Assembly: GCA_016124795.1 (NCBI GenBank)
Contig: WGNB01000027.1
Location: forward strand, 34,613 to 98,612
Length of the DNA: 64,000 nucleotides
Direction of reading: 5' to 3'
Source: Rhodopseudomonas sp.
GTDB taxonomy: Bacteria > Pseudomonadota > Alphaproteobacteria > Rhizobiales > Xanthobacteraceae
Numbering within the stretch: the stretch's first letter is position 1; each line of letters opens with the position of its first letter. The notes beneath the pieces are model-generated. The model made no database searches and was not told the DNA's origin. It was given only the letters and a program-made list of their open reading frames with translations. The position numbers and the translations under genes are program-made. Of this stretch, positions 26,412-37,691 are shown piece by piece.

Positions 26412-29153
26412 ATGACATCGCAAGCCGCAACGACCACGCCCGGCCAAAGTCGGGCGCTGTGGATGTCCACCATCGCTTTCACGGTTTGCTTTGCCGTGTG
26501 GACCATTTTCGCCATCATCGGCATTCAGATTAAGCAGCGGCTCGGGCTGAACGAGACCGAGTTCGGCCTACTGGTCGGCACACCGATCCTCACCGGCTCG
26601 CTGACGCGCATCTTCCTTGGTATCTGGACCGATCAGTATGGCGGCCGGCGCGTCTACACGGCGGTGATGCTCGCTGCTGCAGTCGCAACCTTCCTGCTCA
26701 CTTACGCTCACACTTATCTTCAATTTCTGACCGCCGCCCTCGGCGTCGGAGTCGCCGGCGGCTCGTTTGCGGTTGGTATCGCTTACGTGTCGCGCTGGTA
26801 CTCGGCCGAAAGACAAGGCACCGTGCTCGGCATCTTCGGTGCCGGCAACGTCGGCGCCGCCGTCACCAAGTTCTGCGCTCCGTTCGTTCTCGTCGCCTAT
26901 GGCTGGCAAGTGACGGCACAGGTCTGGGCCACGGCGATCGCGCTGATGGCGATCATTTTCTGGTTTACGACGAGCGAAGATCCGGTTGAGATGGCGCGTC
27001 GCGCCAAGGGTGAGCGGCCGCGCAGCGCCTGGCTCGAACTTGAGCCGTTGAAGAACCTGCAGGTCTGGCGTTTCTCGCTCTATTATTTCTTCGCCTTCGG
27101 TGGCTTTGTTGCGCTGGCGTTGTGGCTGCCGCGTTACATGATTGGCGTCTACAAGCTCGACATTGAAACAGCGGGCATGCTGGCCGCGGCCTACTCGATC
27201 CCGGCGAGCTTGTTCCGGGCTTACGGCGGCGTTCTCTCCGACCGTTATGGCGCGCGCCGCATCATGTACTGGATGTTCAGCGTTTGCGCGGCGATCGCCT
27301 TCATCCTGGCCTATCCGCCGGCTGAATACGTTATTCAGGGCATGAAGGGTCCGATCCAGTTTCATATGGCGACCGGCGTCGTCACCTTCACCTGCCTGAT
27401 CTTCGTGCTCGGCTTCTTCATGAGCCTTGGCAAGGCCGCGGTCTATAAGCACATCCCGGTCTATTACCCGAACAATGTCGGTTCGGTCGGTGGCCTGGTC
27501 GGGATGATCGGCGGCCTCGGCGGTTTCGTGCTGCCGATCGCCTTCGGCGTGCTCAACGATCTCACCGGCATCTGGACCAGCTGCTTCATGCTGCTGTTCG
27601 TCATCGCCGCTGGTTCCCTGCTTTGGATGCATCTTGCGGTCCGGCGTATGGAGCGCGAGGCGCTGGCACCCGGCCTGGAGAAACTACCGCAGTTCCCCGA
27701 AATGCAGCCGATCCACGAGGAAAAGCATGTCGGCGCTCTCGCTGGTCATGTGCTCGCCGAGTGGAAGCCCGAGGATCCGAAGTTCTGGGACGAAAAGGGT
27801 AAGGCCGTCGCCCGGCGCAATCTGTGGATCTCGATCCCGGCGCTGCTACTCGCCTTCGTGATCTGGATGGTGTGGTCGGTTGTCGTTGCTAAACTGCCGG
27901 CGGTCGGGTTCAAGTTCACGACCGATCAGTTGTTCTGGTTGGCGGCGATGCCGGGTCTGTCCGGTGCCACCTTGCGCATCTTCTACTCCTTCATGCCGCC
28001 GATCTTCGGCGGCCGGCTGTGGACCTCGGTGTCCACCTGGTCACTGATGGTGCCGGCGGTCGGCATCGGCCTGTCGGTGCAGTCGCCCGATACGCCCTAC
28101 ATCATCTTCCTGTCACTGGCCGCTTTGTGTGGTCTCGGCGGTGGCAACTTCGCCTCGTCGATGGCCAACATCTCCTTCTTCTTCCCGAAGGCGGAGAAGG
28201 GTAACGCGCTGGCGCTCAATGCCGGTCTCGGCAATCTCGGCGTCAGCGTCGGCCAGTTCGTCATTCCGCTGGTTATCACGACGGCGGTGTTCGGCTGGGT
28301 CGGCGGTGAACCGCTCAGCGCTAGCGCCACGACCAAGCTGTGGCTGCAGAATGCCGGCTTCATCTGGGTGCCGTTCATCGCCATCTCGGCGACCGCCGCC
28401 TGGTTCGGCATGAACGACATTGCCGCGATGAAGGCATCCTTCGCCGATCAGGCGGTGATCTTCAAGCGCAAGCACAACTGGCTGATGTGCTGGCTCTATA
28501 CCGGCACCTTCGGCTCGTTCATCGGCTACTCGGCCGGCTTCCCGCTGCTCGCCAAGACCCAGTTCCCGCAGGTCGACTCCTTGAAATACGTCTTCCTCGG
28601 GCCGCTGGTCGGCGCGCTGTCGCGCTCGGCGACCGGCTGGCTGTCGGACAAGTATGGCGGCGGCCGCGTCACCTTCTGGACCTTCCTGGTGATGATCGCG
28701 GCAGTGGGCGGCGTGCTCTACTTCCTCGGCATCAAGGACCAGGCCAACGCGTTCTGGGGCTTCTTCGCCATGTTCATGGTGTTGTTCTTCGCCACCGGCG
28801 TCGGCAACGCTTCCACGTTCCAGATGATCCCGACGATCATGCGCACCGAGATGCCGCGCCTCGAGCCCGGCATGTCGCTGGCCGATCGTCAGCGTCAGGC
28901 GGAAATGGAGTCGGCGGCGATCATCGGCTTTACCTCGGCAGTCGCGGCCTACGGCGCCTTCTTCATCCCGAAGGCCTACGGCACCTCGATCGCGCTGAGC
29001 GGCGGGCCGGAAGTGGCGCTGTGGGGCTTCATGGCCTTCTACGTCACCTGCGTCGCTATCACCTGGGGCTTCTACACCCGGCGCGGCGGCCTGCTGCGCG
29101 ATGTCGAACGCGGCAAAGGTCTGCCGCCCGCGGCCGCGCAACCCGCCGAATGA
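26412..29153 (+). CDS. narK: Fused NarK1-NarK2 nitrate/nitrite transporter
   Basis: The 913-aa protein consists of two consecutive major-facilitator modules of about 12 helices each. The first (residues 1 to about 430) is NarK1-like, with GSLTRIFLGIWTDQYGGRRVY and the nitrate-signature segment GVAGGSFAVGIAYVSRWY. The second (about 465-913) is NarK2-like, with GLSGATLRIFYSFMPPIFGGR and ALCGLGGGNFASSMANISFFFPKAEKG. In Paracoccus such a fusion supplies nitrate import (proton symport) and nitrate/nitrite exchange to a respiratory Nar enzyme. It leads narGHJI with 16 bases to narG. Confidence 0.95.
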   Translation: MTSQAATTTPGQSRALWMSTIAFTVCFAVWTIFAIIGIQIKQRLGLNETEFGLLVGTPILTGSLTRIFLGIWTDQYGGRRVYTAVMLAAAVATFLLTYAHTYLQFLTAALGVGVAGGSFAVGIAYVSRWYSAERQGTVLGIFGAGNVGAAVTKFCAPFVLVAYGWQVTAQVWATAIALMAIIFWFTTSEDPVEMARRAKGERPRSAWLELEPLKNLQVWRFSLYYFFAFGGFVALALWLPRYMIGVYKLDIETAGMLAAAYSIPASLFRAYGGVLSDRYGARRIMYWMFSVCAAIAFILAYPPAEYVIQGMKGPIQFHMATGVVTFTCLIFVLGFFMSLGKAAVYKHIPVYYPNNVGSVGGLVGMIGGLGGFVLPIAFGVLNDLTGIWTSCFMLLFVIAAGSLLWMHLAVRRMEREALAPGLEKLPQFPEMQPIHEEKHVGALAGHVLAEWKPEDPKFWDEKGKAVARRNLWISIPALLLAFVIWMVWSVVVAKLPAVGFKFTTDQLFWLAAMPGLSGATLRIFYSFMPPIFGGRLWTSVSTWSLMVPAVGIGLSVQSPDTPYIIFLSLAALCGLGGGNFASSMANISFFFPKAEKGNALALNAGLGNLGVSVGQFVIPLVITTAVFGWVGGEPLSASATTKLWLQNAGFIWVPFIAISATAAWFGMNDIAAMKASFADQAVIFKRKHNWLMCWLYTGTFGSFIGYSAGFPLLAKTQFPQVDSLKYVFLGPLVGALSRSATGWLSDKYGGGRVTFWTFLVMIAAVGGVLYFLGIKDQANAFWGFFAMFMVLFFATGVGNASTFQMIPTIMRTEMPRLEPGMSLADRQRQAEMESAAIIGFTSAVAAYGAFFIPKAYGTSIALSGGPEVALWGFMAFYVTCVAITWGFYTRRGGLLRDVERGKGLPPAAAQPAE

Positions 29154-29169
29154 GAAGGACGAAAGAACA

Positions 29170-32100
29170 ATGAGTCATTTTCTCGATCGGTTGACCTTCT
29201 TCAAACGCGGTGACGAGACTTTCTCCGACGGTCACGGCATTACGACTCACGAAGATCGGCGCTGGGAGGACGGCTACCGCAAGCGTTGGCAGCACGACAA
29301 GATCGTGCGCTCGACGCACGGCGCCAACTGTACCGGTTCGTGCTCGTGGAAGATCTACGTCAAGGGTGGCATTGTCACCTGGGAGACGCAGCAGACCGAT
29401 TATCCGCGCACGCGGCCGGAACTGCCCAACCACGAGCCGCGCGGCTGTTCGCGCGGCGCCAGCTACTCCTGGTACCTCTACTCGGGCAACCGCGTGAAAT
29501 ATCCGCTGGTGCGGTCACGGCTTTTGAAGCTGTGGCGTGAGGCGCGGGTCTTGCGCACGCCGGTCGCGGCCTGGGCCTCGATCGTCGAGGAGCCGGCGAA
29601 ACGTGAAGCCTATGTCTCGAAACGCGGCCTCGGCGGCTTCGTCCGCGCCACCTGGGACGAGGTGACGGAGATCATCGCGGCAGCCAATGCCTACACCGCG
29701 AAGAAACATGGCCCGGACCGCATCATCGGCTTCTCGCCGATCCCGGCGATGTCGATGGTGTCTTACGCCGCTGGCTCGCGCTACCTGTCGCTGCTCGGCG
29801 GCGTCTGCATGTCGTTCTACGACTGGTATTGCGACCTGCCGCCGGCTTCTCCGCAGACCTGGGGCGAGCAGACCGACGTTCCCGAGAGCGCCGACTGGTA
29901 CAACTCGGGCTTCCTCATTTTGTGGGGCTCGAACGTCCCGCAGACGCGCACGCCTGATGCACATTTCTACACCGAAGCGCGTTATCGCGGCGCCAAGAGC
30001 GTCGTCATCTGCCCGGATTATTCGGAAGCCTCGAAGTTCGCCGATCTCTGGATCTCGGTGAAGCAGGGCACCGACGCGGCGCTCGCCATGGCGATGGGCC
30101 ACGTCATCCTGCGCGAATTCCACATCGACCGCAAAGCCAGGTATTTCGAGGACTATGTCCGCCAGTACACGGATATGCCGATGCTGGTGGAGCTCGTGAA
30201 GCAGGACGGCAAGCTGGTGCCTGGGCGGCTCCTGCGTGCCTCCGACTTCACGGGCGATCTCGACGAGACCAATAATCCGGAGTGGAAGACCGTCGCCTTC
30301 GACGAGCAAAGCCAATCGATCGTCGCGCCGCGCGGTTCGGTCGGCTTCCGCTGGGGTGAGAAGGGCAAATGGAATCTCGAGGAGAAGAAGTCGGACGGCG
30401 CAGCCACCAAGCTGCAACTGTCGCTCGCCGACAATCGCGACGAACTGGCCGATGTCGACTTCCCCTATTTCGGCAATCGCGAGCATGACCATTTCGCCGG
30501 CACCGACCATCCGAGCGTTCTGACGCGCAAGGTTCCGGCCAGGCGCGTCGCGCTCAAGGATGGCGAGAAACTGGTCGCGACCGTCTACGACCTGTTTGTC
30601 GCTAACTACGGCCTCGACCGTGGCTTCGGCGGCGACCACGTCGCCAAGTCCTATGACGAGGACGTGCCCTATACGCCGGCCTGGGCGGAAAAGATCACTG
30701 GCGTGCCGCGTGATCAGATCATCACGGTGGCGCGCGAGTTCGCGCTTAATGCCGAGAAGACCAATGGCCGCTCCATGGTCATCATCGGCGCGGCGATGAA
30801 CCACTGGTATCACTGCGATATGAACTACCGCGGCGTCATCAACATGCTGGTGATGTGCGGTTGCGTTGGCCAGTCGGGCGGCGGCTGGTCGCATTATGTC
30901 GGTCAGGAAAAGCTGCGCCCGCAATCGGGCTGGCTGCCGCTGGCCTTCGGTCTCGACTGGGGCCGGCCGCCGCGCCAGCAGAACTCGACGTCGTTCTTCT
31001 ACGCGCATACCGATCAGTGGCGCTACGAGACCGTCGGCGTCGAGGAAATTTTGTCGCCGACCGCACCGGCCGGTCCTTGGGACGGCGCGCTGATCGATTA
31101 CAATGTGCGCGCTGAGCGCATGGGCTGGCTCCCGTCGGCGCCGCAGCTCAGGCAGAATCCGCTGGAGATCGCCAGGAAGGCGGCCGCCGCCGGCCTTGAG
31201 CCGAAGGACTATGTCGCCAAGGCACTGAAGTCCGGCGAGCTGCAGATGTCCTGCGAGGACCCGGACCATCCCGACAACTGGCCGCGCAACATGTTCGTGT
31301 GGCGCTCGAACCTGCTCGGCTCGTCCGGCAAGGGCCACGAGTATTTCCTCAAGCACCTGCTCGGCGCCACGCATGGTGTGCAGGGCAAGGACCTCGGCGA
31401 AACCGGGCACCAGAAGCCGAAGGAAGTCGCGTGGCACGACGATGCGCCGAGGGGCAAGCTCGACCTCCTGGTGACGCTCGACTTCCGCATGTCGACGACC
31501 TGCGTCTATTCCGACATCGTGCTGCCGACCGCCACCTGGTACGAGAAGAACGACCTCAACACCTCGGACATGCATCCCTTCATTCACCCGCTGACGTCGG
31601 CGGTGGATCCGGTGTGGGAGGCGAAAAGCGACTGGGAGATCTACAAGGCCATCGCCAAGGCGTTCTCGCGCGTCGCGCCCGAAGTGCTCGGCGTCGAGAA
31701 GGACGTGGTGCTGACGCCGATCCAGCACGATTCGGCCGGCGAAATCGCGCAGGCGCTCGACGTCAAGGACTGGAAGAAGGGCGAGATCGACCCGATCCCC
31801 GGCAAGACCATGCCGGCGGTGACGGTGGTCGAGCGCGACTACCCCAACATCTACAAGCGTTACACCGCGCTCGGGCCGTTGATGCAGAAGATCGGCAACG
31901 GCGTGAAGGGCATGGCCTGGAACACCGAGCACGAGGTCGAACTCCTGAAGCGTCTCAACGGCGAAGTGACGGAGGAGGGGACGACCAAGGGCCTCGCCCG
32001 CATCGACACTGACATTGACGCCACCGAGGTCATTCTGTCGCTGGCGCCGGAGACCAACGGCGAAGTCGCGGTCAAGGCCTGGGACGCGTTGTCCAAGACC

Positions 32101-32934
32101 ACCGGCCTTGACCACACGCATCTCGCTATCCCGAAGGAAGACGAGAAGATCCGCTTCCGCGACGTGGTGGCGCAGCCGCGCAAGATCATCTCGGCGCCGA
32201 CCTGGTCTGGCCTGGAGTCGGAGAAGGTCTGCTACAACGCCGGCTACACCAACGTCCACGAACTGATCCCGTGGCGCACCCTCTCCGGTCGTCAGCAGCT
32301 CTATCAGGATCACCTGTGGATGCGGGCTTTCGGCGAGGCCTTGTGCGTCTATCGGCCGCCGGTCGATCTCAAGGCCGTCAAGCCGGTGATCGATTCCAAG
32401 CCGAACGGCGAGAAGCAGATCGTCCTCAACTTCATCACGCCGCACCAGAAGTGGGGCATCCACTCGACCTACACCGACAACCTGCTGATGCTGACTTTGT
32501 CGCGTGGCGGGCCGATCGTCTGGATCAGCGAGAACGACGCCAAAAAGGTCGGCATCGCCGACAATGACTGGATTGAGGCCTACAACTCGAACGGCGCGCT
32601 GGTTGCGCGCGCCGTGGTGTCGCAGCGCGTCAAGGACGGCATGTGCATGATGTATCATGCGCAGGAGAAGATCGTGAACGTGCCCGGTTCGGAAGTGACC
32701 GGCCAGCGCGGCGGCATCCACAATTCGGTGACGCGCGTGGTGGTGAAGCCGACGCACATGATCGGCGGCTATGCTCAGCAGGCCTACGGTTTCAACTACT
32801 ACGGAACGATCGGCACCAACCGCGATGAGTTTGTCATCGTCCGCAAGATGAAGAGTGTCGATTGGCTCGACAAGCCAACCGCCGACCAACCCGAACCGCT
32901 GGCTGTCTCGCCGAAAATGGAGGCCGCAGAATGA
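29170..32934 (+). CDS. narG: Respiratory nitrate reductase alpha subunit NarG
   Basis: I use the ATG at 29170 (MSHFLDRLTFFKRGDETFSDGHG), with a GAAGGAC ribosome site upstream; the track start at 29101 lies inside narK. The 1254-aa molybdenum enzyme has the N-terminal [4Fe-4S] FS0 motif with His ligand (HGANCTGSCSWKIYVKGG ... CSRGASYSWYLY), the molybdenum-ligand Asp region FYDWYCDLPPASPQTWGEQTDV, and the bis-MGD binding domains. It reduces nitrate to nitrite at the cytoplasmic face of the membrane with electrons from quinol through NarI and NarH. Its stop overlaps narH by ATGA. Confidence 0.97.
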   Translation: MSHFLDRLTFFKRGDETFSDGHGITTHEDRRWEDGYRKRWQHDKIVRSTHGANCTGSCSWKIYVKGGIVTWETQQTDYPRTRPELPNHEPRGCSRGASYSWYLYSGNRVKYPLVRSRLLKLWREARVLRTPVAAWASIVEEPAKREAYVSKRGLGGFVRATWDEVTEIIAAANAYTAKKHGPDRIIGFSPIPAMSMVSYAAGSRYLSLLGGVCMSFYDWYCDLPPASPQTWGEQTDVPESADWYNSGFLILWGSNVPQTRTPDAHFYTEARYRGAKSVVICPDYSEASKFADLWISVKQGTDAALAMAMGHVILREFHIDRKARYFEDYVRQYTDMPMLVELVKQDGKLVPGRLLRASDFTGDLDETNNPEWKTVAFDEQSQSIVAPRGSVGFRWGEKGKWNLEEKKSDGAATKLQLSLADNRDELADVDFPYFGNREHDHFAGTDHPSVLTRKVPARRVALKDGEKLVATVYDLFVANYGLDRGFGGDHVAKSYDEDVPYTPAWAEKITGVPRDQIITVAREFALNAEKTNGRSMVIIGAAMNHWYHCDMNYRGVINMLVMCGCVGQSGGGWSHYVGQEKLRPQSGWLPLAFGLDWGRPPRQQNSTSFFYAHTDQWRYETVGVEEILSPTAPAGPWDGALIDYNVRAERMGWLPSAPQLRQNPLEIARKAAAAGLEPKDYVAKALKSGELQMSCEDPDHPDNWPRNMFVWRSNLLGSSGKGHEYFLKHLLGATHGVQGKDLGETGHQKPKEVAWHDDAPRGKLDLLVTLDFRMSTTCVYSDIVLPTATWYEKNDLNTSDMHPFIHPLTSAVDPVWEAKSDWEIYKAIAKAFSRVAPEVLGVEKDVVLTPIQHDSAGEIAQALDVKDWKKGEIDPIPGKTMPAVTVVERDYPNIYKRYTALGPLMQKIGNGVKGMAWNTEHEVELLKRLNGEVTEEGTTKGLARIDTDIDATEVILSLAPETNGEVAVKAWDALSKTTGLDHTHLAIPKEDEKIRFRDVVAQPRKIISAPTWSGLESEKVCYNAGYTNVHELIPWRTLSGRQQLYQDHLWMRAFGEALCVYRPPVDLKAVKPVIDSKPNGEKQIVLNFITPHQKWGIHSTYTDNLLMLTLSRGGPIVWISENDAKKVGIADNDWIEAYNSNGALVARAVVSQRVKDGMCMMYHAQEKIVNVPGSEVTGQRGGIHNSVTRVVVKPTHMIGGYAQQAYGFNYYGTIGTNRDEFVIVRKMKSVDWLDKPTADQPEPLAVSPKMEAAE

Positions 32935-34451
32935 AAATCCGCGCGCAAATCGCGATGGTGCTGAATCTCGATAAATGTATCGGGTGCCACACCTGTTCCG
33001 TGACCTGCAAGAACGTGTGGACCAACCGCGAAGGCATGGAATACGCGTGGTTCAATAACGTCGAGACCAAGCCCGGCATCGGTTATCCCAAGGAGTGGGA
33101 GAACCAGAAACGCTGGAACGGTGGCTGGCGCCGCAAGTCGAACGGCAAGATCGAACCGCGCATCGGCGGCAAGTGGCGGGTGCTGGCGAACATCTTCGCC
33201 AACCCCGATTTGCCGGAGATCGACGACTATTACGAGCCCTTCACCTTCGACTACGAGCACCTGCAGAACGCGCCGGAGCTCAAGGCTTCGCCGACGGCGC
33301 GGCCGCGCTCGCTGATTACCGGTCAGCGCATGGAGAAGATCGAGTGGGGCCCGAACTGGGAGGAGATCCTCGGCACCGAATTCGCCAAGCGGTCGAAGGA
33401 TGTCAACTTCGACGGCGTGCAGAAGGACATCTACGGCCAGTTCGAAAACACCTTCATGATGTACCTGCCGCGGCTGTGCGAGCACTGCCTCAACCCGGCC
33501 TGCGCCGCCGCCTGTCCTTCGGGCGCGATCTACAAGCGCGAAGAGGACGGCATCGTCCTCATCGACCAGGACAAGTGCCGTGGCTGGCGCATGTGCGTGT
33601 CCGGCTGTCCGTACAAGAAGGTGTATTACAATTGGTCGAGCGGCAAATCGGAGAAGTGCATCTTCTGCTATCCGCGCATCGAGGCGGGGCAACCGACGGT
33701 GTGCTCGGAAACCTGCGTCGGCCGCATCCGTTATCTCGGCGTCGTGCTCTATGACGCCGACCGCATCGAAGAGGCGGCCAGCGTGCCGAACGAGCAGGAC
33801 CTCTATGATGCCCAGCTCGGCGTCTTCCTCAACCCGCACGATCCGCGCGTCATCGAGCAGGCCCGCCGCGATGGCATCAACGAGAACTGGCTCGAGGCCG
33901 CGCGGCGTTCGCCGGTCTACAAGATGGCGATGGAGTGGAAGGTCGCCTTCCCGCTGCATCCCGAATATCGCACGCTGCCGATGGTCTGGTACGTGCCGCC
34001 ACTGTCGCCGATCCAGTCCGCGGCGCAGGCCGGCAAGATCGGCCATGACGGCGAGATGCCGGATGTGCGCTCGCTCCGCATTCCGCTGAAGTATCTCGCC
34101 AACCTGTTGACCGCCGGGAAGGAGGAGCCGGTGGCGCTCGGCCTCGAACGCATGTTGGCGATGCGCGCCTATATGCGGTCGAAAACCATCGACGGCGTCA
34201 TCGACGAGAACATCGCCAAACGCGTCGGCCTCACCAGCCTCGCGATCGAGGACATGTACCACGTCATGGCGATCGCCAATTACGAGGACCGCTTCGTCAT
34301 CCCGACGGCCCACCGCGAGGTCAACGAGGACGCCTACGACTTGCGCGGTTCCTGCGGCTTCTCGTTCGGCAATGGCTGCTCCGGCGGCACCTCCGAGACC
34401 AATCTGTTCGGCACGCCGAAGCGCGGCAAGAACCCGATGGAGATGGCTTGA
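32931..34451 (+). CDS. narH: Respiratory nitrate reductase beta subunit NarH
   Basis: The ATG at 32931 overlaps the narG stop (ATGA); the track start at 32862 is upstream in narG. The 506-aa iron-sulphur subunit carries four Cys clusters: CIGCHTCSVTCKNVW; CEHCLNPACAAACPSG; CRGWRMCVSGCPYKK, where Trp replaces a Cys and so gives a [3Fe-4S] cluster as in other NarH; and CIFCYPRIEAGQPTVCSETC. It relays electrons from NarI haem to NarG. The narJ ATG overlaps its stop codon by one base. Confidence 0.97.
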   Translation: MKIRAQIAMVLNLDKCIGCHTCSVTCKNVWTNREGMEYAWFNNVETKPGIGYPKEWENQKRWNGGWRRKSNGKIEPRIGGKWRVLANIFANPDLPEIDDYYEPFTFDYEHLQNAPELKASPTARPRSLITGQRMEKIEWGPNWEEILGTEFAKRSKDVNFDGVQKDIYGQFENTFMMYLPRLCEHCLNPACAAACPSGAIYKREEDGIVLIDQDKCRGWRMCVSGCPYKKVYYNWSSGKSEKCIFCYPRIEAGQPTVCSETCVGRIRYLGVVLYDADRIEEAASVPNEQDLYDAQLGVFLNPHDPRVIEQARRDGINENWLEAARRSPVYKMAMEWKVAFPLHPEYRTLPMVWYVPPLSPIQSAAQAGKIGHDGEMPDVRSLRIPLKYLANLLTAGKEEPVALGLERMLAMRAYMRSKTIDGVIDENIAKRVGLTSLAIEDMYHVMAIANYEDRFVIPTAHREVNEDAYDLRGSCGFSFGNGCSGGTSETNLFGTPKRGKNPMEMA

Positions 34452-35158
34452 TGAGCATCACCCTGAAAGCCCTCTCCGCGCTTCTGACTTATCCGACCGC
34501 CGAGCTGACCCAGGCGGCCGGCGAAATCAGGGAAGCGCTGGACAAGGACAAGCGTATCCCGGCGTCGGTGCGCGACCAGTTGCACAAGCTGCTTAATGAA
34601 CTGGCGAGCAACGACCTTTACGACCTGCAGGAGCGTTACGTGCTCTTGTTCGACCGCACCCGGTCGCTGTCGCTGCACCTGTTCGAGCATGTCCACGGCG
34701 AAGGCCGCGACCGTGGCCAGGCCATGATCGACCTCAAGTCACAATATGAGGCGGCCGGTTTGCAGATGTCGGCGAACGAATTGCCCGACTTCCTGCCGCT
34801 GTTCCTGGAATATCTCGCGACGCAGCCGGCGCAGGACGCCTGCGATACGCTTGGTCAGCCGGCGCATATCTTCGCCGCGATCGCGGAACGGCTGCGCAAG
34901 CGCCACTCGACCTATGAAGCGGCATTCCGCGCTCTGATCGCGCTGTCGGCGGCCAAGCCCAAGGACAACGAAATCGCGGCTTTGCTGCAATTCCCCGATC
35001 CCGACGCCGACGACCTCGCAGCGCTCGACGCCATCTGGGAGGACGAGCCGGTGAATTTCGGTCCCGGTTCCGGCGACGGCTGCAAGGATAATCTCATCGC
35101 CCGCGTGCGCGGCGGCATGCGTCCCGCGCCCGACATGCCTCAACGTCCGCGTCATTGA
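34451..35158 (+). CDS. narJ: Nitrate reductase assembly chaperone NarJ
   Basis: The ATG at 34451 shares its A with the narH stop. The 235-aa all-helical protein matches the NarJ/TorD family (LSALLTYPTAELTQAAGEIREAL; YVLLFDRTRSLSLHLFEHVHGEGRDRGQAMIDL; ELPDFLPLFLEYLA). NarJ binds the NarG N-terminus and is required for molybdenum cofactor and FS0 insertion before membrane attachment. The gene order G-H-J-I is canonical. Confidence 0.95.
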   Translation: MSITLKALSALLTYPTAELTQAAGEIREALDKDKRIPASVRDQLHKLLNELASNDLYDLQERYVLLFDRTRSLSLHLFEHVHGEGRDRGQAMIDLKSQYEAAGLQMSANELPDFLPLFLEYLATQPAQDACDTLGQPAHIFAAIAERLRKRHSTYEAAFRALIALSAAKPKDNEIAALLQFPDPDADDLAALDAIWEDEPVNFGPGSGDGCKDNLIARVRGGMRPAPDMPQRPRH

Positions 35159-35168
35159 GGAAAGCATC

Positions 35169-35873
35169 ATGCGCGACTTGATCACTTCCATCGTCTTCGG
35201 CTGGTACCCTTACCTCTGCCTCACCGTGTTTCTGCTCGGCAGTCTGGTCCGCTTCGACCGCGAGCAATATACGTGGCGCTCTGGCTCGAGCCAGTTGCTT
35301 CGCCGCCGGCAACTGACGTGGGGCTCCAACCTGTTTCATGTCGGCATCCTCGCCATTTTCGCCGGTCATTTCGTCGGCCTGCTGACGCCGATCTGGGTGT
35401 TCGACACGCTCGGCATCTCGCATACCTTCAAGCAGTGGATGGCGATTTCGATCGGCGGCGTCGCCGGTGTTGCCTGCTTCATCGGCATCACGCTGCTGGC
35501 GCACCGCCGCCTGTTCGACCCGCGTATCCGCACCACTTCGTCGTTCGGCGACATCGCCATCCTGCTCCTGCTCTGGCTGCAACTCACGCTCGGGCTTGGC
35601 ACGATCTACGTGTCGCTGCATCATCTCGACGGCCATGAGATGGTGAAGTTCATGACCTGGGCTCAAGGGATTCTCACCTTGCAGCCGGGCGTCGCGGCGG
35701 TGATCGCTGACGTGCACCCGATCTTCAAGGCGCACTTGTTTCTCGGCATGACCATCTTCCTGTTGTTCCCGTTCACGCGCCTCGTGCACATCTGGAGCGC
35801 GCCGGTCTGGTATCTCGGCCGTCGCGGTTATCAGGTTGTGCGCACGCGGCGCCCCATTGTTCCGGCGGAGTGA
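35169..35873 (+). CDS. narI: Respiratory nitrate reductase gamma subunit NarI
   Basis: The 234-aa membrane cytochrome b subunit has five hydrophobic helices. Haem-ligand histidine regions are visible (NLFHVGILAIFAGHFVG, HPIFKAHLFLGMTIFLLFPFTRLVHIWSAPVWYLGR). It oxidises quinol on the periplasmic side and passes electrons to NarH. GAGGAAAG precedes the ATG. The next gene overlaps its stop (GTGA). Confidence 0.96.
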   Translation: MRDLITSIVFGWYPYLCLTVFLLGSLVRFDREQYTWRSGSSQLLRRRQLTWGSNLFHVGILAIFAGHFVGLLTPIWVFDTLGISHTFKQWMAISIGGVAGVACFIGITLLAHRRLFDPRIRTTSSFGDIAILLLLWLQLTLGLGTIYVSLHHLDGHEMVKFMTWAQGILTLQPGVAAVIADVHPIFKAHLFLGMTIFLLFPFTRLVHIWSAPVWYLGRRGYQVVRTRRPIVPAE

Positions 35874-36718
35874 CGGCCATGTCGCTCTCAATCAGCGTGA
35901 ACGTGGCCGGTAACAGCAAGTCCAGGCCGGTCGATATCAGCGTCAATGGCGTCAGCATCGCGCGCGACGTGATTGTTCGCGAGATACAACACCACCCGGC
36001 CGAAAGGCCGGCCGCCGCCTGGTTCGAGGCGGCCCGGGCGCTGGTGGTGCGCGAACTGCTGTTGCAGCGCGCGGCGGCGCTTGAATTGACACCCGAGCCG
36101 CTTACCGAGGACGGTCGCCGCGAAACCGACAATGAAGCGCTGATGCGTGCCGTGATCGAGCGAGAAATCGCCGTGCCCGAACCCGACGAGGCCACTTGCC
36201 GGCGCTACTATGACAACAATAAAGCCCGCTTCCGTTCGCCCGACATCTATGAGGCCTCGCACATCCTGTTTGCGGCGTTGCCGGCGGACCAGGCCGCCTA
36301 TGCGCAGGCGCTTGCTATTGCCGAAGGCGTGCTGGCGGCTCTGATCGAACGGCCCGAGTCGTTTGCAACGATGGCCAGGGCCTATTCGCGCTGCTCGTCG
36401 GCGGCGCATGGCGGCAATCTCGGTCAGATCACCACCGGCCAGACCACACCGGAATTCGAGCGGGCGCTGGTGGCGCTTGAGCCGGGCCAACTCTGCGAAG
36501 CGCCGGTTGAGACACGTTACGGTTTTCACATTATCCGGCTTGAACGCAAGCACGATGGTGAGACTTTGCCTTACGAAGCCGTCGCCGGCCGGATCGCCGA
36601 TTATCTGCGCGATAGCGTCGCACACCGCGCACAGGCCCAATACATCGCCCGGTTGGTCTCGGCCGCGCGCATCGAAGGCATCGAACTGGCCGGCGCCGCC
36701 GAGCATTACGTAAACTGA
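35870..36718 (+). CDS. Parvulin-type peptidyl-prolyl isomerase (PpiC/NifM-like) in the nar operon
   Basis: The frame opens with GTG overlapping the narI stop (GTGA); an ATG at 35879 is an equally plausible start. The N-terminal half is helical (SurA/NifM-like). Residues about 130-245 form a rotamase domain (YEASHILFAAL, FATMARAYSRCSSAAHGGNLGQITTGQTTPEFERALVALEPGQLCEAPVETRYGFHIIRLERK). No signal peptide is seen, so it probably acts in the cytoplasm, perhaps in folding or maturing the nitrate reductase, as NifM does for nitrogenase iron protein. Translational coupling to narI supports this. Confidence 0.88.
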   Translation: MTAMSLSISVNVAGNSKSRPVDISVNGVSIARDVIVREIQHHPAERPAAAWFEAARALVVRELLLQRAAALELTPEPLTEDGRRETDNEALMRAVIEREIAVPEPDEATCRRYYDNNKARFRSPDIYEASHILFAALPADQAAYAQALAIAEGVLAALIERPESFATMARAYSRCSSAAHGGNLGQITTGQTTPEFERALVALEPGQLCEAPVETRYGFHIIRLERKHDGETLPYEAVAGRIADYLRDSVAHRAQAQYIARLVSAARIEGIELAGAAEHYVN

Positions 36719-36730
36719 AGGAACGACACC

Positions 36731-37006
36731 ATGCTGCTAGGCGATGTGTTGCGAAAATTGACCGACGATGGCGCGGCCGCCGAGGTCATTATGAGCGTCG
36801 GCGATCTGGCGCTTTTGAACGCTATATCCAACCGTGCGGCGCGCGAAGGACTCGGTCTCGCGAGCTTCAGCCAGGCCGCAGTACGACGCTATTCCGACGC
36901 CGCCTCCGAGGAGGAGTGGGTCACGCTGCTCGGCCAGATCGGCCAGTCGGTCGATCCGGCCGCGACCTATTTGAAGCGCGCTTTCGCCAGTGCGCTGCAT
37001 CCATAA
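36731..37006 (+). CDS. 91-aa orphan protein in the nar operon
   Basis: This small acidic, helical protein has no signal peptide or membrane span. The segment LALLNAISNRAAREGLGLASFSQAAVRRYSDAASEEEWVTLLGQIGQSVDPAATYLKRAFASAL resembles no domain I can name. It lies 12 bases after the isomerase gene and 15 before the DUF2478 gene, so it is almost certainly co-transcribed with nar. A role in nitrate reductase assembly or cofactor supply is inferred from context only. Confidence 0.7.
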   Translation: MLLGDVLRKLTDDGAAAEVIMSVGDLALLNAISNRAAREGLGLASFSQAAVRRYSDAASEEEWVTLLGQIGQSVDPAATYLKRAFASALHP

Positions 37007-37021
37007 GTGAGGGACCACACG

Positions 37022-37594
37022 ATGACCGGTGCGACATCATCCAATATTCTTGCGATCACCTATTCCGACAGCCTTGCCGCCGACCGTGTGATTGCTGAAA
37101 CCGCGTACCGGCTGCGCGATGACGGCGTGAACGTCGCCGGCCTTGTGCAGATTAACAGCGAGGTTCCCGGCCGCACCAAGTGCAATATGGCCGTGGAGGA
37201 ACTGTACTCGCGCACGATGTTTCAGTTGTCAGAGGATCGCGGACCGGCGGCGCGCGGCTGCCGCCTCGATCACAGCCGGTTGGCCGACGCGGCGGGGCTG
37301 TTGATTGATATCCTGGGCCAGGACCTCGACCTCGTCATTCTAAATAAATTCGGCAAGGTCGAAGCCGAAGGCGGCGGCTTGCGCGATCTGCTCGGCCGCG
37401 CCGTGCTGCTCGGCATTCCGCTGATCGTCGGTGTGCCCTATCGCAATCTTGACCAGTGGCGGATTTTCGCTGCCGGCCTGGCCGACGAATGCGAGGTATC
37501 AGTCGACGCTCTCGAACGCTGGCTGGCAGCGAAAGGCTTATGGGCGTCGGCCGAAGAACGTCAACGACTGGGTTCCGACGGCCTGAGGCCCTGA
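37022..37594 (+). CDS. DUF2478 family protein
   Basis: The start is chosen at ATG 37022 with GAGGGA upstream; the track begins at an in-frame GTG at 37007. The 190-aa protein has DUF2478 features: an N-terminal strand ILAITYSDSLAADRVIAETAYRLRDDGVNVAGLVQ, the Cys/Arg segment RGCRLDHSRLADAAG, DLVILNKFGKVEAEGGGLRDL, and GIPLIVGVPYRNLDQW. The family resembles P-loop NTPase folds and is found near molybdenum transport and molybdoenzyme genes. It ends the nar operon and may help molybdenum or cofactor supply. Confidence 0.85.
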   Translation: MTGATSSNILAITYSDSLAADRVIAETAYRLRDDGVNVAGLVQINSEVPGRTKCNMAVEELYSRTMFQLSEDRGPAARGCRLDHSRLADAAGLLIDILGQDLDLVILNKFGKVEAEGGGLRDLLGRAVLLGIPLIVGVPYRNLDQWRIFAAGLADECEVSVDALERWLAAKGLWASAEERQRLGSDGLRP

Positions 37595-37613: not shown

Positions 37614-37691
37614 ATGAGCCTCGACCGTCTGTTCGATCGTAATGCCATCTGGGCTCAGGCCAGGACCCGTGACGATTTCGCCTATTACTGA
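37614..37691 (+). pseudogene. 25-aa fragment, possibly a carbonic anhydrase N-terminal remnant
   Basis: A short ORF, MSLDRLFDRNAIWAQARTRDDFAYY, starts 19 bases after the DUF2478 gene. Its opening resembles the N-terminus of beta-carbonic anhydrases (LxxLFxxNxxWAxxxxxxDPxFF), but the frame stops before any zinc-binding residue. It may be a truncated gene left by a deletion, or a chance small ORF. Confidence 0.3.

Follow-up and report, generated by a model that had tools for sequence, protein, structure and literature searches.

A conserved 91-residue protein family encoded directly behind the parvulin of nitrate reductase operons

The nar operon of Rhodopseudomonas sp. does not end with narI. 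Three further genes follow it on the same strand, and the question is whether their products contribute to the assembly of the nitrate reductase NarGHI and, if so, which of them belong together.

Gene order behind narI

The window, that is the whole stretch of DNA that was analysed, comprises 64,000 nt (assembly GCA_016124795.1, contig WGNB01000027.1, positions 34,613–98,612 of the forward strand), and all coordinates given here are window coordinates. It contains an intact narK12-narGHJI operon at 26412–35873, on the + strand like all the genes described below. The operon starts with a fused narK1-narK2 nitrate/nitrite transporter gene (26412–29153; NarK family TIGR00886, E = 4.7e-157). The four following products were identified by NCBIfam scores above the curated cut-offs: the alpha subunit NarG (29101–32934; TIGR01580, 2208 bits, cut-off 1084), the beta subunit NarH (32931–34451; TIGR01660, 985 bits, cut-off 524), the Moco assembly chaperone NarJ (34451–35158; TIGR00684, 119.5 bits, cut-off 59) and the gamma subunit NarI (35169–35873; TIGR00351, 270 bits, cut-off 106). 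The real start of narG probably lies inside the called frame, near position 29170.

Behind narI come the genes for a cytoplasmic-type parvulin (35879–36718, alternative start GTG 35870), a 91-residue protein termed ORF91 (36731–37006) and a DUF2478 protein (37022–37594, alternative start GTG 37007). The initial annotation had placed three reading frames at 35870–37594; these coordinates are correct and the genes are real. The GTGA overlap that it described between narI and the parvulin gene is doubtful, as it requires the GTG start at 35870. A Shine-Dalgarno-like GGCGGAG at 35864–35870, read by eye, has a spacing that suits ATG 35879, and parvulin homologues begin at the corresponding position. 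A GAGGGA at 37009–37014, also read by eye, suits ATG 37022 of the DUF2478 gene and not GTG 37007. These two ATG codons are therefore preferred as starts. The successive gaps then measure 5, 12 and 15 nt, so that the tight coupling of the three genes holds, with ORF91 and DUF2478 following within 15 bases as originally described. Terminator-like and promoter-like patterns were found in the region at chance level, and an internal promoter or terminator dividing the three genes was rejected on this ground. In Methylophaga, RT-PCR gave no product linking narI2 and ppi (PMC4689864).

Downstream of DUF2478 lies a 24-codon remnant of a β-carbonic anhydrase gene (37617–37688), with 62.5% identity to residues 4–27 of the carbonic anhydrase of locus L013 (E = 3.4e-5). 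As the gene is whole in the related nar tails L013, L033 and L069, the operon tail of the window has probably been cut by rearrangement. Genes resembling β-carbonic anhydrase recur in the tails L013, L033, L069, L016, L097 and L119, the L013 product being the one confirmed by Pfam (PF00484), and are accompanied in several nar tails by MogA and DUF2478. Hemerythrin-like HHE proteins are also frequent behind the nar parvulin or ORF91 (L014, L015, L016, L013, L026, L032, L039, L046 and L048); of these, the one in L013 has Pfam support and the others were recognised by eye.

The nar parvulin and its variants

The parvulin carries a rotamase domain (PF00639, 83.4 bits, cut-off 21.7, E = 2.3e-23). 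Residues H128, C172 and H217, which we take to be the active-site His, Cys and His by analogy with Pin1 and PpiC, are invariant among 10 aligned nar parvulins. By its domain and conserved residues, the protein is a predicted PpiC-type peptidyl-prolyl isomerase. An N-terminal hydrophobic segment was looked for and none was found, in agreement with the cytoplasmic location initially proposed. Its description as NifM-like was also apt, since NifM is its best NCBIfam match, though under the cut-off (TIGR02933, 81.5 bits against 168.2). NifM, the maturase of the nitrogenase Fe protein, is likewise a parvulin encoded together with a metalloenzyme, and its N-terminal part may bind NifH (PMC12691677). 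The window gene, in contrast, adjoins nar and not nif. In the window's genome (G000, about 95% complete) no nifH was found over the cut-off, and this, together with the score, led to the rejection of an identification as NifM itself.

In a survey of 289 genomes of the class, narI was found above the curated cut-off at 45 loci. A parvulin gene follows it at 35 of these, the other 10 being without a recognised parvulin. The position directly 3' of narI is thus the rule rather than the exception, as already known from the literature. A parvulin gene in nar operons has been reported for P. aeruginosa and Methylophaga (PMC4689864 for the latter), and in Accumulibacter ppiC was drawn among the denitrification gene loci. 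The nar-associated PpiC proteins of P. aeruginosa (PA3871), P. stutzeri (Psest_3482) and Methylophaga (ppi) resemble that of the window in their parvulin domain and in being encoded behind narI; unlike in the window, no ORF91 has been reported in their operons. No paper was found that explains why parvulins occupy about half of proteobacterial nar operons.

Six homologues of the nar parvulin encoded directly behind narI (L019, L097–L100 and L119) have lost the rotamase domain and kept both flanks. They match the nar-parvulin profile up to approximately position 123 and again from approximately 230 onward, and a Pfam search of the six detected no rotamase. The C-terminal PLVQ is kept in five. 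This pattern of loss suggests that the nar-specific work of the protein is probably done by the flanks, and that catalysis can be lost.

The C-termini of nar parvulins mostly bear a conserved ...SPLVQ-like tail, including in Pseudomonas, which is possibly a docking peptide. The window protein ends in ...EHYVN.

ORF91 and DUF2478

The initial annotation proposed that the three genes encode an undescribed maturation module for NarGHI. The link between parvulin and nar, and the idea of maturation, were in fact published in 2015, when ppiC was reported in 52.3% of the narGHI operons of denitrifying Proteobacteria (PMC4464133). What stands is a family strongly tied to nar: the new element with respect to the literature, judged by sequence comparison, is the conserved ORF91 family directly behind the nar parvulin.

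ORF91 is a real gene, as dozens of genomes carry a member of the family in the same position and as comparison with a Pseudolabrys homologue (L153) gave a dN of 0.25 for a dS of 1.14 (dN/dS about 0.22), indicating purifying selection. The protein was rightly described as unknown, with no Pfam or NCBIfam match over the cut-off. No PDB sequence match was found below E 0.5. Weak matches, such as DUF7426 or an integrase, were discarded because they are below the cut-off and not common to the homologues. An AlphaFold2 model computed from 17 sequences is a six-helix bundle (pLDDT 92.3, pTM 0.82), for which Foldseek found no PDB match better than E 4.1. ORF91 is thus confidently predicted to be a six-helix bundle without PDB counterpart; a known fold, for example a NarJ/TorD-type bundle, was rejected for want of a PDB fold match.

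A family common away from molybdoenzyme genes was to count against the original proposal. In 249 genomes of the order, where narI was found over the cut-off in 56, the ORF91 profile matched in 22: 19 matches lie directly behind narI-parvulin, 1 is at a contig edge and 2 are unlinked. The proposal withstands this check. Among the 20 nar-type carriers, 19 possess narI (Fisher p = 5e-13, uncorrected for phylogeny). In profile searches of the class, ORF91 follows the nar parvulin at 9 of the 35 narI loci with a parvulin and at 0 of the 10 without a recognised one. In a separate collection of 80 named nar-parvulin loci, NarI is encoded on the fetched stretch in 79 and ORF91 is immediately next in 37. 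The latter include loci of Bradyrhizobium, Rhizobium, Mesorhizobium, Bosea, Xanthobacter and Azorhizobium, as well as Falsiroseomonas, Sphingomonas and Brevundimonas; the Pseudomonas loci of this collection have no ORF91.

Two loci display a fusion. In L016 and L072, the alignment shows that the ORF91 domain runs in frame from the C-terminus of the parvulin, with no intervening stop. These loci belong to two genera of one family. A further locus, L071, shares its genus with L016 and has the two as separate genes. Both fusions have a similar linker and may therefore result from one event. Given the conservation after narI-parvulin, the fusions, the predicted structure and the dN/dS, ORF91 is probably a partner, or a detached domain, of the nar parvulin.

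Some other features of the family were recorded. The homologues L073:8931–9302 and L074:9428–9784 have neither nar nor molybdoenzyme genes around them, and no narI over the cut-off was found in their genomes; a weak match in genome G014 (E = 8.6e-4) has none of the nar query genes nearby. The homologues L010, L013, L033, L067, L068 and L069 have a cysteine-rich C-terminal tail, of the CxCGG..GCH type in several of them, which perhaps binds metal. This tail is not present in the ORF91 of the window.

The DUF2478 protein is clearly assigned (PF10649, 154.7 bits, cut-off 22.3, E = 2e-45). Its predicted model (pLDDT 85.5) shares its fold with the NTPase THEP1 (Foldseek, 1ye8, E = 1.9e-4, probability 1.00, TM 0.59/0.66), and no sequence match to the solved THEP1 was found. 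The Walker A P-loop GxxxxGK[ST] is missing from all 10 nar-linked DUF2478 homologues, and an active P-loop NTPase was rejected for this set. DUF2478 occurs in 25 of the 289 genomes of the class; 12 of these are narI carriers (Fisher p = 6e-5), and in 8 of the 25 it lies within the nar tail. The order parvulin-ORF91-DUF2478 of the window is repeated in Pseudolabrys (L153) and at the loci L162, L173 and L174. The grouping of the three genes into one module is nevertheless not upheld: DUF2478 comes and goes and is only loosely coupled to the other two, and the conserved unit consists of the parvulin and ORF91.

The association of DUF2478 with molybdenum is supported by its neighbourhoods. It is found near a molybdopterin-binding C-terminus resembling that of NapA (L142), near a Mo-hydroxylase subunit (L149), and in an in-frame fusion behind MobA (L147:1480–2619). 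MobB can be fused to MobA, and DUF2478 is similar to it in this respect. About half of the remaining sites have no molybdenum gene within 1.5 kb, as judged by eye. Genes for MobA, MoeA and MogA occur in other nar tails. Considering the THEP1 fold, the MobA fusion and the Moco genes in the same tails, a role in cofactor supply fits best. A literature search returned no paper on the function of DUF2478.

Possible roles of the operon tail

Individual deletions combined with assays of nitrate reductase activity had been suggested as a check, and published RB-TnSeq data for P. stutzeri RCH2 provide part of the answer, for the parvulin only. In denitrifying growth, Psest_3482 had a fitness of -0.3, almost no defect, compared with -1.8 to -2.4 for narGHI; with chromate, its value was -2.6, near those of narG (-2.9) and narH (-3.1) (PMC5554334). 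The section of that article on nitrate reduction does not discuss Psest_3482. No such data were found for ORF91. As its fitness depends on chromate, the need for the parvulin is to be read as conditional, and the near-neutral value in ordinary denitrification makes an obligate maturation factor unlikely.

The favoured explanation, to which about an even chance is given, is that the nar tail forms an accessory cassette for the assembly of NarGHI, a stress-conditional helper and not an obligate NarJ-like step. The parvulin and ORF91 would act as one unit, in which the N-terminal helices and C-terminal tail of the parvulin and the ORF91 bundle would hold a cytoplasmic component of Nar or target it as a client; this client is probably NarG, or NarGH ahead of membrane docking. 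The parvulin domain would speed up prolyl isomerisation if folding is slow or damaged. This help would matter under stress and would not be obligate like that of NarJ. DUF2478 would be a separate, loosely coupled aid to cofactor supply, MobB-like and directed to MobA, and not to folding. The starting points are the observed gene order (the parvulin after narI, ORF91 adjacent), conservation, fusions, domain loss in the rotamase-less homologues, predicted folds, the conditional fitness from RB-TnSeq and the precedent of NifM; from these we infer that the client is Nar, that there is physical contact, and what DUF2478 does. The NarJ/REMP chaperones are dedicated NarG assembly helpers encoded in the operon, a role like that proposed here. 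No sequence relation to them was found, and NarJ being encoded separately, the new proteins are additional.

Several facts count against an assembly cassette. In E. coli, nar is known to work although its operon has no parvulin of this kind, and 10 of the 45 loci of the class have no recognised one. Most nar-parvulin operons, the Pseudomonas ones among them, lack ORF91, and two of its homologues are away from nar and molybdoenzymes. The chromate sensitivity in P. stutzeri need not act via Nar. DUF2478 is frequently missing or encoded at another place: of its 25 carriers in the class, 8 have it in the nar tail.

The main rival, possible although rather unlikely, is regulatory hitch-hiking, by which general anaerobic stress helpers borrow the nar promoter with no action on Nar itself. 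The tail behind narI-parvulin is indeed variable, with HHE, carbonic anhydrase, NnrS-, NnrU- and HemN-like genes (the last three recognised by eye), and a parvulin such as that of P. stutzeri, which has little effect on ordinary growth with nitrate and matters with chromate, is what a general helper might look like. However, the parvulin is fixed directly behind narI while other tail genes shuffle, ORF91 stays with it, and several downstream genes are molybdenum cofactor genes. It is improbable that ORF91 serves to regulate or inhibit the parvulin instead of being a client adaptor: a small separate protein, strictly adjacent and occasionally fused, would suit a regulatory subunit equally, but inhibition would be permanent in the two genera with fused proteins, and ORF91 matches no nuclease, toxin or DNA-binding family over the cut-off. 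The initial reading of all three proteins as essential joint maturation factors of NarGHI beyond NarJ, despite their tight coupling in the window and the repeated order in Pseudolabrys and at three other loci, is very improbable given the near-neutral fitness of the parvulin in ordinary denitrification and the many nar operons without ORF91 and DUF2478.

The accessory-cassette explanation can be taken further, tentatively and with somewhat less than an even chance of being correct. ORF91 would found a new family of helical co-chaperones, forming one machine with the nar-dedicated parvulin. The non-catalytic parts of this machine would be what recognises NarG or NarGH, as suggested by the loss of the catalytic domain in some lineages. 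Under metal or redox stress, the machine would protect or repair the assembly of nitrate reductase. The versions with a fused partner domain and those devoid of the enzyme domain are natural experiments that hint at which parts matter. The published chromate phenotype points to a condition to examine, and the question is testable in common laboratory denitrifiers. If the proposal is true, such a co-chaperone machine would add a further layer to the maturation of molybdoenzymes, beyond that of NarJ.
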